In this document: positions 16,449 to 31,608 of the stretch, one piece after another
Layout: each line of letters opens with the position of its first letter
Position numbering within the stretch: position 1 is the first letter of the stretch
Assembly: GCF_030611305.1 (NCBI RefSeq)
Contig: NZ_JAUWQB010000029.1
Location: forward strand, 1-39,543
Source: Desulfobacula sp.
GTDB lineage: Bacteria; Desulfobacterota; Desulfobacteria; Desulfobacterales; Desulfobacteraceae
DNA length: 39,543 nt
Direction: 5' to 3'
Translations under genes and position numbers: made by a program
Notes under the pieces: generated by a model
Told to the model about the DNA's origin: nothing
What the model saw: only the letters and a program-made list of their open reading frames with translations
Database searches by the model: none

Positions 16449-17660
16449 TTATAATATTGCGATCTTGTCGCTGAATGTTGTAAGGGGTTCAAGACCATTG
16501 TCTGTTACCAGCAATGAGTTTTCTATCCCTACCACTCCAATTCCCGGGAAGACTGCCTTGGGTTCAAGGGCAATCATCATGCCTTTTTCAAGGGAAAGTT
16601 TCTGGCCTTTGGCAATAAAAGGGAATTCATCCAGTTCAAGGCCTATACCATGACCTGTAAACCGGATTCTTCTGTCGCAGGCTCCCATGAAATAGTCTTT
16701 GTATCCTTTGGCGCAAGCCTCAGACATCATCATGTCGTACAGCTCCCCTGCAACACTTCCCGGGGTTGCAGTCTTTATTACCATCTCCTGGATTTCCAGC
16801 ATGACGTCATGGGCCTTTAAAAGATCATCCGGTAATTTACCAAGAGAGAAAATCCTTGTATGATCACTGATATAGCCATTCAAGACAAAAACGTAATCAA
16901 CAAGAATCGGTTCATTTCGTTTGATTGTATTAAATCCCGGCCCCTGGGCAATACTGGGATTGACCCCTTTGCCACCGGTGGGCGAGGCAAAGCAGCTGGG
17001 GACGGCAGCTCCCGGTCCTGCCATGATATGACCGTAGAAAAGATCATTGTCCCACATTCGCATCCGGATCAGGCCCTGATGCCCAAGACTTCTGGCATAG
17101 GCTTCAACCAATCCCGCAAATTTGATCTCGGTCATTCCTTCCTTGATTAAATCAGGCACTTTGGCTGCAACTTTATCTGCCATCTGTGATGCCTGCCGCA
17201 ACAAGTCAATTTCATAGTCTGATTTTACAGCCCGCTGCATCCTGATCTGAAAAGAAATATCAATAATGTTGGAACCGGAAAATATCTTTTGAAATAACAG
17301 ATACTGATTGGCTGGCAATACATCCAGCTCAAGACCCAAATTTTGTGGAATTGAATATCCGAATGCCGCCATAGTCTCAGGAATTTCCCTGGGGCTTACA
17401 AGGGAAACGACTTGTTTAAGTTCTGATTCTTCTTTGGCCCGTTGGAACTCTTTAAACACCATCAGCAACGGCTCTCCATGATTAGGGACATACAACCATC
17501 CCTGCTGCGCCGTTCCTGAATAATAGAACATATCTGCTTTCTGTAAAATCAGGGCCCCATCAACATTGCGTTTCTCAAGCCTTTCCTGTAAGTCGATAAT
17601 TCTTGATTGCAGTTCCTTTTCAGGTGTGCTCCGGTCATACTGAACCATGTATTTCACCAT
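16449..17660 (-). CDS. M24-family metallopeptidase (Xaa-Pro aminopeptidase/dipeptidase-like)
   Basis: A 403-residue protein with an N-terminal creatinase-like domain (about 1-160) and a C-terminal pita-bread fold. All five metal ligands of the family can be read: Asp in ILVDYVF, Asp in GYISDHT, His in FTGHGIGLE, Glu in MIALEPKA and Glu in VGIENSL. It therefore looks catalytically complete, cutting dipeptides or N-terminal residues next to proline. It is the last gene of the minus-strand tetR-icmF-thiolase-dehydrogenase series (gap of 88 bases to the dehydrogenase). It has no obvious step in acyl-CoA oxidation. Convergent with the Usp-receiver gene 17 bases away. Confidence 0.87.
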   Translation of the reverse strand: MVKYMVQYDRSTPEKELQSRIIDLQERLEKRNVDGALILQKADMFYYSGTAQQGWLYVPNHGEPLLMVFKEFQRAKEESELKQVVSLVSPREIPETMAAFGYSIPQNLGLELDVLPANQYLLFQKIFSGSNIIDISFQIRMQRAVKSDYEIDLLRQASQMADKVAAKVPDLIKEGMTEIKFAGLVEAYARSLGHQGLIRMRMWDNDLFYGHIMAGPGAAVPSCFASPTGGKGVNPSIAQGPGFNTIKRNEPILVDYVFVLNGYISDHTRIFSLGKLPDDLLKAHDVMLEIQEMVIKTATPGSVAGELYDMMMSEACAKGYKDYFMGACDRRIRFTGHGIGLELDEFPFIAKGQKLSLEKGMMIALEPKAVFPGIGVVGIENSLLVTDNGLEPLTTFSDKIAIL

Positions 17661-17748
17661 TTTTTAAATAAAAAAGCTGCGGCAAAGCATTTGATAATTT
17701 TGTTACGGCCTTGTCACAGCTTTAATTTAAGATTAATTTTAAGTTTAA

Positions 17749-29647: not shown

Positions 29648-29658
29648 GGAGATAAAAA

Positions 29659-31608
29659 ATGCCAAAACTTTTGTGGCAGCCGTCTGAGAAGAGAATAAAA
29701 AGTACCAACATGTATCGTTTCATGAATCTTGTGAATGAAAAATTTAGCAAAGATTTTAAAGAATATGCATCTCTGTGGGAGTGGTCCGTGGATAATCTTG
29801 AGGATTTCTGGGCAACCGCCTGGGATTTTCTTGATATCAAGGCCTCCCGGTCCTATGAAAAGGCCATTGATGATCCGACCAAAATGCCGGGGGCAAAATT
29901 CTTTGTCAATTCCAAACTTAATTTTGCCGAAAACCTTTTACAATTTAAAAATGACAATCTGGCTATAATTTTCAGGGGGGAGGATTCCGTTAGAAAAACC
30001 CTGACCTATAAACAACTTTATGATGAAGTGACAAAAACAGCCGCCGCTTTAAAAGCACTTGGCATAGAAAAAGGCGACCGGGTAGTTGGATTTGTCCCCA
30101 ATATGCCCGAAAGCATCATCGCAATGCTGGCCGCCACAAGTCTTGGTGCCATCTGGTCTTCCTGCTCACCGGATTTTGGGATCAAAGGGGTTCTGGACAG
30201 ATTCGGTCAAACCCGGCCCAAAGTATTGTTTACGGCTGACGGATATTTTTTTAAAGGCAAACCCCTGGACAGCATTGAAAAAATCGCCGGCATTGTCAAA
30301 GAGATTCCTTCCATAGAAAAAATTGTTGTGATCCCCTATGTATCTGAGGAACCCGACATTAGTTCCCTGCCAAATGCAGTGCTATTCAAGGATTTTAAAG
30401 ATCCTGATGCCACCCAAATTGAATTCGAGCAGATGGATTTTGATGATCCGCTTTATATCATGTATTCTTCCGGGACAACCGGACTTCCCAAATGTATGGC
30501 ACAGAGTGTGGGCGGAGTCCTTTTACACCAGAAAAAAGAACTGGTACTCCATACGGATCTGAAAGAAGAAGACACCATTTTCTATTTTACCACCTGCGGC
30601 TGGATGATGTGGAACTGGCTGACCGCGTCCTTGAGTGTGGGGGCAACCCTTGTTCTTTTTGACGGCAATCCCTTCCACCCCGGCCCTGATGCTTTGTGGA
30701 AAATGGCAGAGGATGAAAAAATAACGGTTTTCGGCACCAGCGCAGGATATATTGAAGCTTTGAAAACCGCAGGGGTTAAACCCGGAAAACAATATGACCT
30801 GTCAGCCTTAAAATCGGTTCTTTCAACCGGCTCACCCTTATCAGATGAAAACTTTGAATATATATACAATGAAGTGAAAGAGGACCTCCAGCTTGCTTCC
30901 ATATCCGGTGGATCAGATCTCAACGGCTGTTTTGCTCTGGGCAATCCAATCGGCCCTGTGTATACCGGAGAACTCCAGTGCCGCGGCCTTGGCATGAAGG
31001 TCTATGCCTATGATGAAAGCGGCAAACCCGTAGTGGGACAACAGGCTGAACTTGTCTGTGCCGCTCCCTTCCCGTCCATGCCTATCTTTTTCTGGGGGGA
31101 CGAAGACGGTTCCAAGTATCATTCCGCCTATTTTGACGAGTATCCGGGGATCTGGACCCATGGGGATTTTATCATGGTAACCGAACGAGGCGGCGTGATC
31201 ATGTTCGGCAGATCAGATGCCACACTCAACCCTGGCGGTGTGAGGATCGGTACGGCTGAAATCTACCGCCGGCTTGATGCCATGGAAGAACTTGAAGACT
31301 CTGTTATTGTGGGGCAATCCTGGAACAATGATGTCAGGGTCATTCTCTTTGTCAAAATGGCCAAAGGATTTGAGCTTGACGATGTGCTAAAAAACACAAT
31401 AAAGTCAGAGATAAGAGCCAATGCCTCCCCAAGACATGTTCCGGCTAAAATCATTGAATGCCCGGATGTTCCCTACACATTAAACATGAAAAAGGTTGAG
31501 CTGGCCGTTAAAAAAATGATCGAAGGAAAAGAAGTAAAAAACAAGGATGCATTAAAGAATCCTGAATCCCTTAATTTTTTTGGCAGTCTTAAAGAACTTA
31601 AATCATAA
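29659..31608 (+). CDS. Acetoacetyl-CoA synthetase
   Basis: A 649-residue ANL enzyme of the acetoacetyl-CoA synthetase subfamily, activating acetoacetate with ATP and CoA. Features: N-terminal lid LLWQPSEKRIKSTNMYRFM (about 4-22), FAENLL, the ATP loop IMYSSGTTGLPKCMAQ (about 270-285), FYFTTCGWMMWNW (about 306-318), ISGGSDLNGCF, the GIWTHGDF region and GRSDATLNPGGVRIGTAEIY. The C terminus has VPYTLNMKKVELAVKK with the catalytic lysine. Length and N terminus set it apart from acetyl-CoA synthetase. It would recycle acetoacetate released by the lyase to acetoacetyl-CoA for the thiolase. Last gene of the operon; a strong hairpin follows. Confidence 0.92.
   Translation: MPKLLWQPSEKRIKSTNMYRFMNLVNEKFSKDFKEYASLWEWSVDNLEDFWATAWDFLDIKASRSYEKAIDDPTKMPGAKFFVNSKLNFAENLLQFKNDNLAIIFRGEDSVRKTLTYKQLYDEVTKTAAALKALGIEKGDRVVGFVPNMPESIIAMLAATSLGAIWSSCSPDFGIKGVLDRFGQTRPKVLFTADGYFFKGKPLDSIEKIAGIVKEIPSIEKIVVIPYVSEEPDISSLPNAVLFKDFKDPDATQIEFEQMDFDDPLYIMYSSGTTGLPKCMAQSVGGVLLHQKKELVLHTDLKEEDTIFYFTTCGWMMWNWLTASLSVGATLVLFDGNPFHPGPDALWKMAEDEKITVFGTSAGYIEALKTAGVKPGKQYDLSALKSVLSTGSPLSDENFEYIYNEVKEDLQLASISGGSDLNGCFALGNPIGPVYTGELQCRGLGMKVYAYDESGKPVVGQQAELVCAAPFPSMPIFFWGDEDGSKYHSAYFDEYPGIWTHGDFIMVTERGGVIMFGRSDATLNPGGVRIGTAEIYRRLDAMEELEDSVIVGQSWNNDVRVILFVKMAKGFELDDVLKNTIKSEIRANASPRHVPAKIIECPDVPYTLNMKKVELAVKKMIEGKEVKNKDALKNPESLNFFGSLKELKS

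Follow-up and report, generated by a model that had tools for sequence, protein, structure and literature searches.

The DNA examined here (the window) is a stretch of 39,543 nucleotides, contig C138 of the draft genome of a Desulfobacula sp. (3.57 Mb, 97% complete); the nearest named relative found, likewise a Desulfobacula sp., has the lyase described below with 97% identity. In its middle, two operons diverge from the interval between a tetR gene and a gene for an acyl-coenzyme A (CoA) dehydrogenase (acd). The left operon, on the minus strand, encodes the TetR-family regulator (23308..23958; PF00440), IcmF, an isobutyryl-CoA mutase fused to its G-protein chaperone (19921..23217), an acetyl-CoA acetyltransferase (thiolase; 18718..19893; TIGR01930 461 bits, cut-off 241; the ATG start was taken, the open reading frame beginning two codons earlier), 3-hydroxybutyryl-CoA dehydrogenase (Hbd; 17749..18600; NF004474 455 bits, cut-off 408) and, as its last gene, an M24 peptidase of the creatinase/Xaa-Pro type (16449..17660; PF00557, PF01321). 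The right operon, on the plus strand, encodes the acyl-CoA dehydrogenase (24280..25428), an AUH-like enoyl-CoA hydratase (ech; 25460..26245), a carboxyltransferase resembling the beta chain of methylcrotonyl-CoA carboxylase (26255..27844), a DRE-TIM lyase with the fold of 3-hydroxy-3-methylglutaryl-CoA (HMG-CoA) lyase (27869..28993), an XRE-cupin regulator (xre; 29012..29647; PF01381, PF07883) and acetoacetyl-CoA synthetase (AacS; 29659..31608; TIGR01217 891 bits, cut-off 521). Open-reading-frame calling and family searches recovered every gene named in the original prediction, which covered 16449-31608, on the strands it implied; the M24 peptidase and the XRE-cupin regulator had gone unnamed there, and a third operon, starting at 6788, had been left out. 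We consider it probable that the whole region is one TetR-controlled regulon with which a marine sulfate reducer scavenges branched short-chain fatty acids, namely isobutyrate and most likely isovalerate. The architecture of this regulon in the window is well supported.

Common control is indicated by a 16-bp near-palindrome, GACTGAGCGCTCGwTC, which lies near both ends of the tetR-acd intergenic region in 8/8 close genomes. It was derived from an alignment of tetR-acd intergenic regions shorter than 700 bp (13 rows from eight distinct genomes, all close relatives). The left copy, at the leftward tetR-icmF promoter (24013..24028, minus strand), matches exactly as GACTGAGCGCTCGNTC and is invariant across the eight aligned genomes, and the right copy (24181..24196, plus strand), also an exact match in the window, is kept in all eight, with one mismatch in one of them. 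The right copy starts 12 bp past, and directly 3' of, a sigma-70-like site for the rightward operon, TTGACA-16-TATAGT (24141..24168, plus strand; 11/12 matches), which is kept in the same alignment; three such promoter-like sites were found against 1.7 expected in shuffles, and the promoter match is thus not significant alone. Scanning the window at up to three mismatches returned the two copies at the divergent promoters, a one-mismatch copy at 6698 and nothing further, while five first-order random sequences of window length (198 kb in total) gave no match at up to two mismatches and one at three.

We also counted the element in distinct 300-bp upstream regions of orthologous genes, considering only starts at which the alignment reached the first 14 residues and the full 300 bp was present, with a threshold of 40% identity for the ligase. 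Counts among the window's close relatives are partly circular, since the pattern was derived from these genomes; those for internal-gene controls and for other families are not. The element was found ahead of 31/31 tetR, 39/64 acd and 4/5 ligase starts, and it was absent from the 300-bp upstream regions of lyase (0/86), carboxyltransferase (0/40), xre (0/67), aacS (0/41), icmF (0/45), thiolase (0/31) and hbd (0/24). Twenty letter-shuffled motifs averaged 0 to 0.05 per gene in the same regions. With 450 bp considered, the element preceded 2 of 37 thiolase starts, a count that includes duplicate genomes. It also stood ahead of six of the 72 ech starts, and all six loci were without a detected acd orthologue; ech may lead the operon there. 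From this distribution, we infer that the element is the predicted operator of the TetR regulator, which would be the probable repressor of three operons. The presence of the element at three operon starts is new in this analysis. We considered a chance neighbourhood of the two arms and reject it because of the element that they share within the genus of the window and in some others.

The third copy of the element (6698..6713, plus strand, one mismatch) lies 74 bp upstream of the ATG of an AMP-forming acyl-CoA ligase (6788..8290; PRK06187 subfamily 350 bits, under the cut-off of 476), the lead gene of a Liv-type ATP-binding cassette (ABC) transporter operon at 6788-15507 on the plus strand. 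The ligase is followed by a LivG-type ABC ATPase (8558..9319; NF008449 262 bits, under the cut-off of 362), a second AMP-forming acyl-CoA ligase homologue (9273..11249; NF038343 289 bits, under the cut-off), a probable LivH-type permease (11249..12142), named by its position, a LivM-type permease (12146..13240; NF008450 116 bits, under the cut-off), and a probable ABC substrate-binding protein (13302..14525) and a probable LivF-type ABC ATPase (14701..15507), both named from their translations read by eye. The ligase-Liv block adjoins the IcmF arm in five other loci (L214, L216, L217, L219 and L223, from genomes G004, G005, G007, G008 and G026), where an open reading frame occupies the same place as the LivH-type permease, and the transporter part alone stands beside the IcmF arm in L228 (G018). 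Because this operon has a one-mismatch operator copy, we extended the unit leftward, and because it adjoins the IcmF arm and carries the element, we read the window's unit as a regulon for uptake, activation and degradation. The natural unit is therefore wider than 16449-31608 and looks like one regulon of about 6.7-31.6 kb in the window's genus, in which the roles in transport and activation are those suggested by the protein families.

The divergent arrangement of tetR-icmF-thiolase-hbd and acd-ech-carboxyltransferase-lyase-xre-aacS recurs in Desulfobacterales. We compared 38 genomes, the window's own and 37 relatives, among them metagenome-assembled genomes (MAGs), from which genes can be absent through assembly. 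A fused IcmF and an orthologue of the lyase are both encoded in 25/38 genomes. Four have IcmF without the lyase orthologue (G009, G020, G021 and G027), four have the lyase orthologue without IcmF (G015, G017, G022 and G029, each at most 81% complete), and five have neither; in two of the IcmF-only genomes, G020 (L229) and G021 (L226), the right arm is partly there and adjoins tetR. In addition, we used 80 named loci, the best among at least 557 relatives of the lyase, and 52 of them have at least 9 kb of upstream sequence. Upstream of the lyase in these 52 loci we found the dehydrogenase in 44, the hydratase in 47, the carboxyltransferase in 27, tetR in 26 and IcmF, within 10 kb, in 24. A combined locus for isobutyrate and an isovalerate-type acid, as originally predicted, is supported by the joint presence of both arms in 25/38 genomes and, for the window and closely related genomes, by the operator common to both. 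The arms are not separate to the point of never co-occurring. The arrangement is conserved, although the arms are often apart: they are parted by about 22-24 kb in G004 and G008 and lie on different contigs in G001 and others. In G001, G004 and G008, which belong to the window's genus, the element is nevertheless found on both separated arms.

Several findings weigh against a single regulon, mainly outside this genus. The association between IcmF and the lyase is modest (Fisher p = 0.02, ignoring relatedness), and in G032, a genome consisting of one contig, 1.9 Mb separate the arms. The element is missing from 25/64 acd upstream regions, all of them outside the window's genus as far as record names tell: five from Desulfosarcina (L144, L147, L149, L152 and L162), three from Desulfatitalea (L132, L150 and L171) and the rest from other Desulfobacterales or unnamed organisms. 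Shared control is not general, because G026, G032, G033 and G036, all outside the window's genus and with the arms apart, have the element on the IcmF arm and none before acd; in G030, where the arms adjoin, it is present on the tetR side only. The four element-bearing ligase starts (the window, G004, G005 and G007) are likewise confined to the window's genus, and the 300 bp upstream of a 43%-identical ligase homologue in G026 lack the element. Judging by these upstream sequences, one control over both arms is clear for the genus of the window and for a few others (e.g. L128, L156 and L159), and it is not order-wide.

The function of the left arm follows most directly from IcmF, which carries PF02310, PF03308 and PF01642 in this order in one chain, exceeds the NF045497 cut-off (1887 bits, cut-off 1500) and aligns with PDB 4xc6, which we take to be the IcmF of Cupriavidus metallidurans, over residues 17-1098. 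Phe588 and Gln735 align with Phe605 and Gln752 of the 4xc6 chain, presumably the substrate-selecting positions of this isobutyryl-CoA mutase. With this pair kept and thiolase and Hbd in the same operon, the predicted isobutyrate route via IcmF finds support, and the isobutyrate path is very likely in the window, its individual steps being assigned from protein families. In some relatives, a second dehydrogenase, 44-47% identical to that of the right arm, follows hbd, often behind an xre gene (L053, L055, L059, L124, L126, L220, L222 and L223). Because of this second dehydrogenase, the IcmF arm would be nearly self-sufficient there, and the right-arm dehydrogenase would be freed for another substrate. 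As a separate observation, an IcmF homologue (60% identity) is encoded about 6.5 kb behind a lyase like that of the window in a Geobacteraceae MAG (L172, 10709-13954).

It had also been suggested that IcmF interconverts pivalyl-CoA and isovaleryl-CoA, so that the right arm would complete the degradation of pivalate. IcmF is reported to act on pivalyl-CoA/isovaleryl-CoA as well as on isobutyryl-CoA (PMC10481361), and the element is common to both arms in the window. The window's enzyme carries, however, the same Phe/Gln pair as the isobutyryl-CoA mutase 4xc6, the thiolase and Hbd of its operon indicate butyryl-CoA as the product, and no feature of the locus is specific for pivalate or points to pivalyl-CoA. 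We regard the pivalate route as extremely improbable.

The substrate of the right arm is less certain. The hydratase, the carboxyltransferase and the pairing of the carboxyltransferase with aacS point to isovalerate, which we consider the likely assignment, the carboxylation and cleavage steps being less certain. Of the isovalerate route originally predicted, the hydratase, carboxyltransferase and AacS fit, whereas the dehydrogenase, the lyase and the lack of a partner biotin carboxylase in the operon complicate it. The dehydrogenase, which scores below every NCBIfam cut-off, has the motifs LDGGR and IGEGTSE; the corresponding motifs of the dehydrogenases in L141, L157 and L165 are LDYER and IGAGTSE. 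We take isovaleryl-CoA dehydrogenase to be marked by a catalytic Glu on helix G (LDxER) together with Gly or Ala in the JK loop (IGAGTSE), and motifs of the LDxER and IGEGTSE types presumably mark the catalytic base. The isovaleryl-type signature is absent from the window's enzyme, which instead has that of the short-chain type, and we reject a standard isovaleryl-CoA dehydrogenase identity on the basis of LDGGR/IGEGTSE. Its best specifically named solved matches are a butyryl-CoA (9w60) and a short-chain (1jqi) enzyme. An isovaleryl-type dehydrogenase could be encoded elsewhere in the same genome, as a fragment on contig C110, 45-50% identical to the end of the window's dehydrogenase, reads IGAGTSD; no full open reading frame for it was found among those of at least 120 residues in L084.

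These properties of the dehydrogenase would also suit a system for isobutyrate and butyrate only, in which the right-arm dehydrogenase and hydratase finish the oxidation of butyryl-CoA and the carboxyltransferase, lyase and AacS are accessory, e.g. in the handling of acetoacetate or acetone. From IcmF through dehydrogenase, hydratase and Hbd to thiolase the path is complete, and the dehydrogenase and hydratase are retained where the carboxyltransferase is missing. The hydratase, on the other hand, is somewhat closer to AUH than to named crotonases: among solved structures its best matches are 3kqf (4e-80) and AUH 1hzd (4.6e-72), with E-values a few orders better than those of named crotonases, and the short-chain hydratase 5z7r is at 8.6e-66. 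Both catalytic residues, Glu115 and Glu135, are present; the best NCBIfam model is PRK07657 (343 bits, cut-off 363), and the substrate is not fixed by sequence. The separate dehydrogenase in the IcmF arm of some relatives, the small margin by which the carboxyltransferase is nearest to methylcrotonyl-CoA carboxylase beta rather than to a propionyl-CoA carboxylase chain, and the occurrence of lyase orthologues within liu-type operons also speak against butyrate as the only end, and we judge this explanation unlikely.

The best solved matches of the carboxyltransferase are the methylcrotonyl-CoA carboxylases 3u9r (1.4e-126) and 8j4z (1.6e-125), followed by 9tps (1.6e-124), named propionyl-CoA carboxylase. 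Its gene travels with aacS (both in 18, neither in 22 and one alone in 8 of 48 loci; Fisher p 5e-6, uncorrected). There is no biotin carboxylase in its operon. A search for PF02785, which as a control was positive in 13 of 14 known genomes, Thermotoga maritima being the exception, found no biotin carboxylase in 12/38 genomes, including five of the 21 that bear the operon's carboxyltransferase (G003, G004, G008, G010 and G017; completeness 97, 90, 100, 96 and 78%). The same search found none in 4/10 named genomes, i.e., Desulfocicer vacuolatum DSM 3385 (G038), the MAGs of L093 and L122, and Desulfosarcina widdelii (G039, complete chromosome); the first three carry the carboxyltransferase all the same, and the lyase locus of D. 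widdelii is without it. The only PF02785 match of the window's genome is on contig C13 (L064) and is paired with a carboxyltransferase of its own. That cluster, its genes named by reading, consists of a TRAP-type transporter, hydratase, ligase, biotin carboxylase, carrier and carboxyltransferase. In G008 there are two matches to biotin carriers, the first within a transcarboxylase-like cluster and the second within a glutaconyl-CoA-decarboxylase-like one (named by reading). Moreover, four genomes with the lyase (G007, G024, G028 and G033) were found to have no methylcrotonyl-type carboxyltransferase, their best matches being 30-31% identical.

A carboxyltransferase working in the decarboxylating direction needs no biotin carboxylase, and the five of 21 genomes with the gene and no PF02785 match could be taken to favour a synthetic right arm, which would make a branched acyl-CoA from HMG-CoA. 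Myxobacteria have such an alternative route to isovaleryl-CoA, and every step is reversible in principle. We nevertheless find synthesis very improbable, given that no HMG-CoA synthase is among the identified operon genes and that aacS in the operon, together with the Liv transporter and ligase under the common element, indicates catabolism.

The lyase keeps the triosephosphate isomerase (TIM)-barrel features of HMG-CoA lyase, i.e., Arg25, Asp26 and the metal-binding His236 and His238. Its predicted structure (predicted local distance difference test 74.7, predicted template modelling score 0.79, from 14 sequences, with low confidence around residues 265-290) retrieved HMG-CoA lyases as the top 14 Foldseek matches, a 5S-type protein first appearing at rank 20. 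However, Gln269 replaces the Cys of GLGGCPY and Leu295 replaces an Asn, which we take to be the catalytic residue and a metal ligand in HMG-CoA lyase, respectively, in 93/93 distinct orthologues that aligned with 55% identity or more, and the protein is under the curated NCBIfam cut-off (NF004283 127 bits vs 246). The Cys is kept in 3/3 HMG-CoA lyases of liu operons and in L173 and L174. Ordinary HMG-CoA lyase is thereby rejected as its identity. So is 5S-type pyruvate carboxyltransferase, as the best folds are HMG-CoA lyases and reading the sequence revealed no Lys at the characteristic 5S motif.

The genomic contexts of this Gln-type lyase point in two directions. In Geobacter and Desulfuromonadaceae MAGs (L157 and L165), it lies about 40 bp behind a liu-type operon of isovaleryl-type dehydrogenase, carboxyltransferase, hydratase and biotin carboxylase (named by reading and similarity) that includes a normal HMG-CoA lyase, and in L141 it follows the same set after a 1-kb gap. 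Because a complete HMG-CoA lyase is also present in these three operons, the Gln-type lyase need not cleave HMG-CoA. In L172 it comes directly after a biotin carboxylase, without an intervening HMG-CoA lyase; in L123 and L138, where no HMG-CoA lyase was seen, it accompanies biotin carboxylase, carrier, carboxyltransferase and aacS (several genes named by reading). These contexts suit a role in HMG-CoA cleavage. The window's genome contains no other HMG-CoA lyase at E 0.001. A plasmid search matched 311 records, all below 60% identity, and the named genes among the matches listed (15) are annotated as hydroxymethylglutaryl-CoA lyase. A 46%-identical Gln-type paralogue (L061, 10487-11662; G018) reads GGQPAN and lies 3' of a Liv-type transporter, with a one-mismatch element about 64 bp upstream, and a more distant lyase (L060, 2647-3837; G027; 34%) reads GGGQPA and keeps the Asn ligand, which suggests that the Gln-type family is wider.

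Two of the enzymes are odd enough to make unusual chemistry plausible. Tentatively, and with less than even probability, the right arm may be a breakdown of isovalerate that is free of biotin carboxylase, by transcarboxylation or by cleavage of a non-carboxylated intermediate. In the first option, the carboxyl group would come from a biotin carrier loaded by decarboxylation of methylmalonyl-CoA, oxaloacetate or glutaconyl-CoA, sparing ATP. In the second, the Gln-type lyase would split a non-carboxylated tertiary hydroxyacyl-CoA, e.g. 3-hydroxyisovaleryl-CoA into acetyl-CoA and acetone, and would then represent an activity new to the HMG-CoA lyase fold. Under either option, the whole pathway would be co-regulated with IcmF in the window's genus.

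For the regulon as a whole, we propose that the Liv-type ABC transporter and the acyl-CoA ligases would take up and activate branched acids, that IcmF would convert isobutyryl-CoA into butyryl-CoA, and that dehydrogenase, hydratase, Hbd and thiolase would convert butyryl-CoA into two acetyl-CoA. The right arm would serve a second acid, most likely isovalerate, through dehydrogenation to 3-methylcrotonyl-CoA and subsequent carboxylation, from a carboxyl donor that is uncertain; the AUH-like enzyme would hydrate, the HMG-CoA lyase-like protein would cleave, and AacS would reactivate acetoacetate. Both the use of isovaleryl-CoA and the cleavage of HMG-CoA by the lyase are uncertain assignments. 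The repressor would bind its operator at the start of all three operons, and a branched acyl-CoA would presumably release it, this ligand being uncertain.

Other features of the window lie outside the proposed regulon. At its left, L-threonine 3-dehydrogenase (569 bits, cut-off 380) is followed by a Kbl/BioF-like acyltransferase (531-2816), syntenic in G007. Near the right end there are an integron integrase (36654-37706, minus strand; TIGR02249 452 bits, cut-off 265) and a match to a group II intron (39406-39475, minus strand; RF00029, 48.7 bits).

Protein decay makes branched fatty acids common in anoxic sediments. For the use of isobutyrate by sulfate reducers, the regulon names a regulator and its predicted site on the DNA as well as candidate genes, and the question can thus be put to the test. 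Two further points concern the enzymes: a lyase family lacks the residue that textbooks give as catalytic, and the presence of a methylcrotonyl-type carboxyltransferase in bacteria with no biotin carboxylase found would imply either carboxylation without ATP or another reaction. Our search of the open-access literature found no description of the combined locus or its operator, and nothing on pivalyl-CoA mutase, on isobutyryl-CoA mutase combined with isovalerate or methylcrotonyl-CoA, on loss of biotin carboxylase, or on D. vacuolatum in connection with these acids.

Among known systems, the isovalerate cluster of Desulfococcus multivorans is similar in that it belongs to a marine sulfate reducer of the Desulfobacteraceae and unites hydratase, Mcc, HmgL, an acyl-CoA synthetase and a regulator, according to the accessible part of its description (PMC5109826). 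There, EchA2, Mcc, HmgL and AcsA6 were formed on 3-methylbutanoate only, which by analogy would favour isovalerate as the substrate of the window's right arm, and the genes for isobutyrate were not assignable by proteomics; the same part describes no IcmF arm, operator or transporter regulon for D. multivorans (PMC5109826). The isobutyryl-CoA mutase cluster of Syntrophothermus lipocalidus shares the anaerobic isomerisation of isobutyrate followed by beta-oxidation, and the mutase genes of such syntrophs are related to those of a group of sulfate reducers, but no isovalerate arm is described in the portion of that report available to us (PMC5017805).

The window's IcmF and that of 4xc6 are alike in being full-length fusions and in their aligned Phe/Gln pair; what sets the former apart is its anaerobic host and its association with hbd, thiolase and the shared element. 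The liu-type leucine operons of L141, L157 and L165 also combine dehydrogenase, carboxyltransferase, hydratase and lyase and are accompanied by an orthologue of the window's lyase with 81-82% identity; unlike the window's operon, they include a dehydrogenase of the isovaleryl-CoA type, a biotin carboxylase and an HMG-CoA lyase that has the Cys. Finally, the window's lyase shares with the HMG-CoA lyases 2cw6, 1ydo and 6nds the fold, the Arg-Asp motif and the two metal-binding His residues, and is distinguished from them by Gln for Cys, Leu for Asn, the insertion of a GTGDYYYDD loop and an extended C-terminus.

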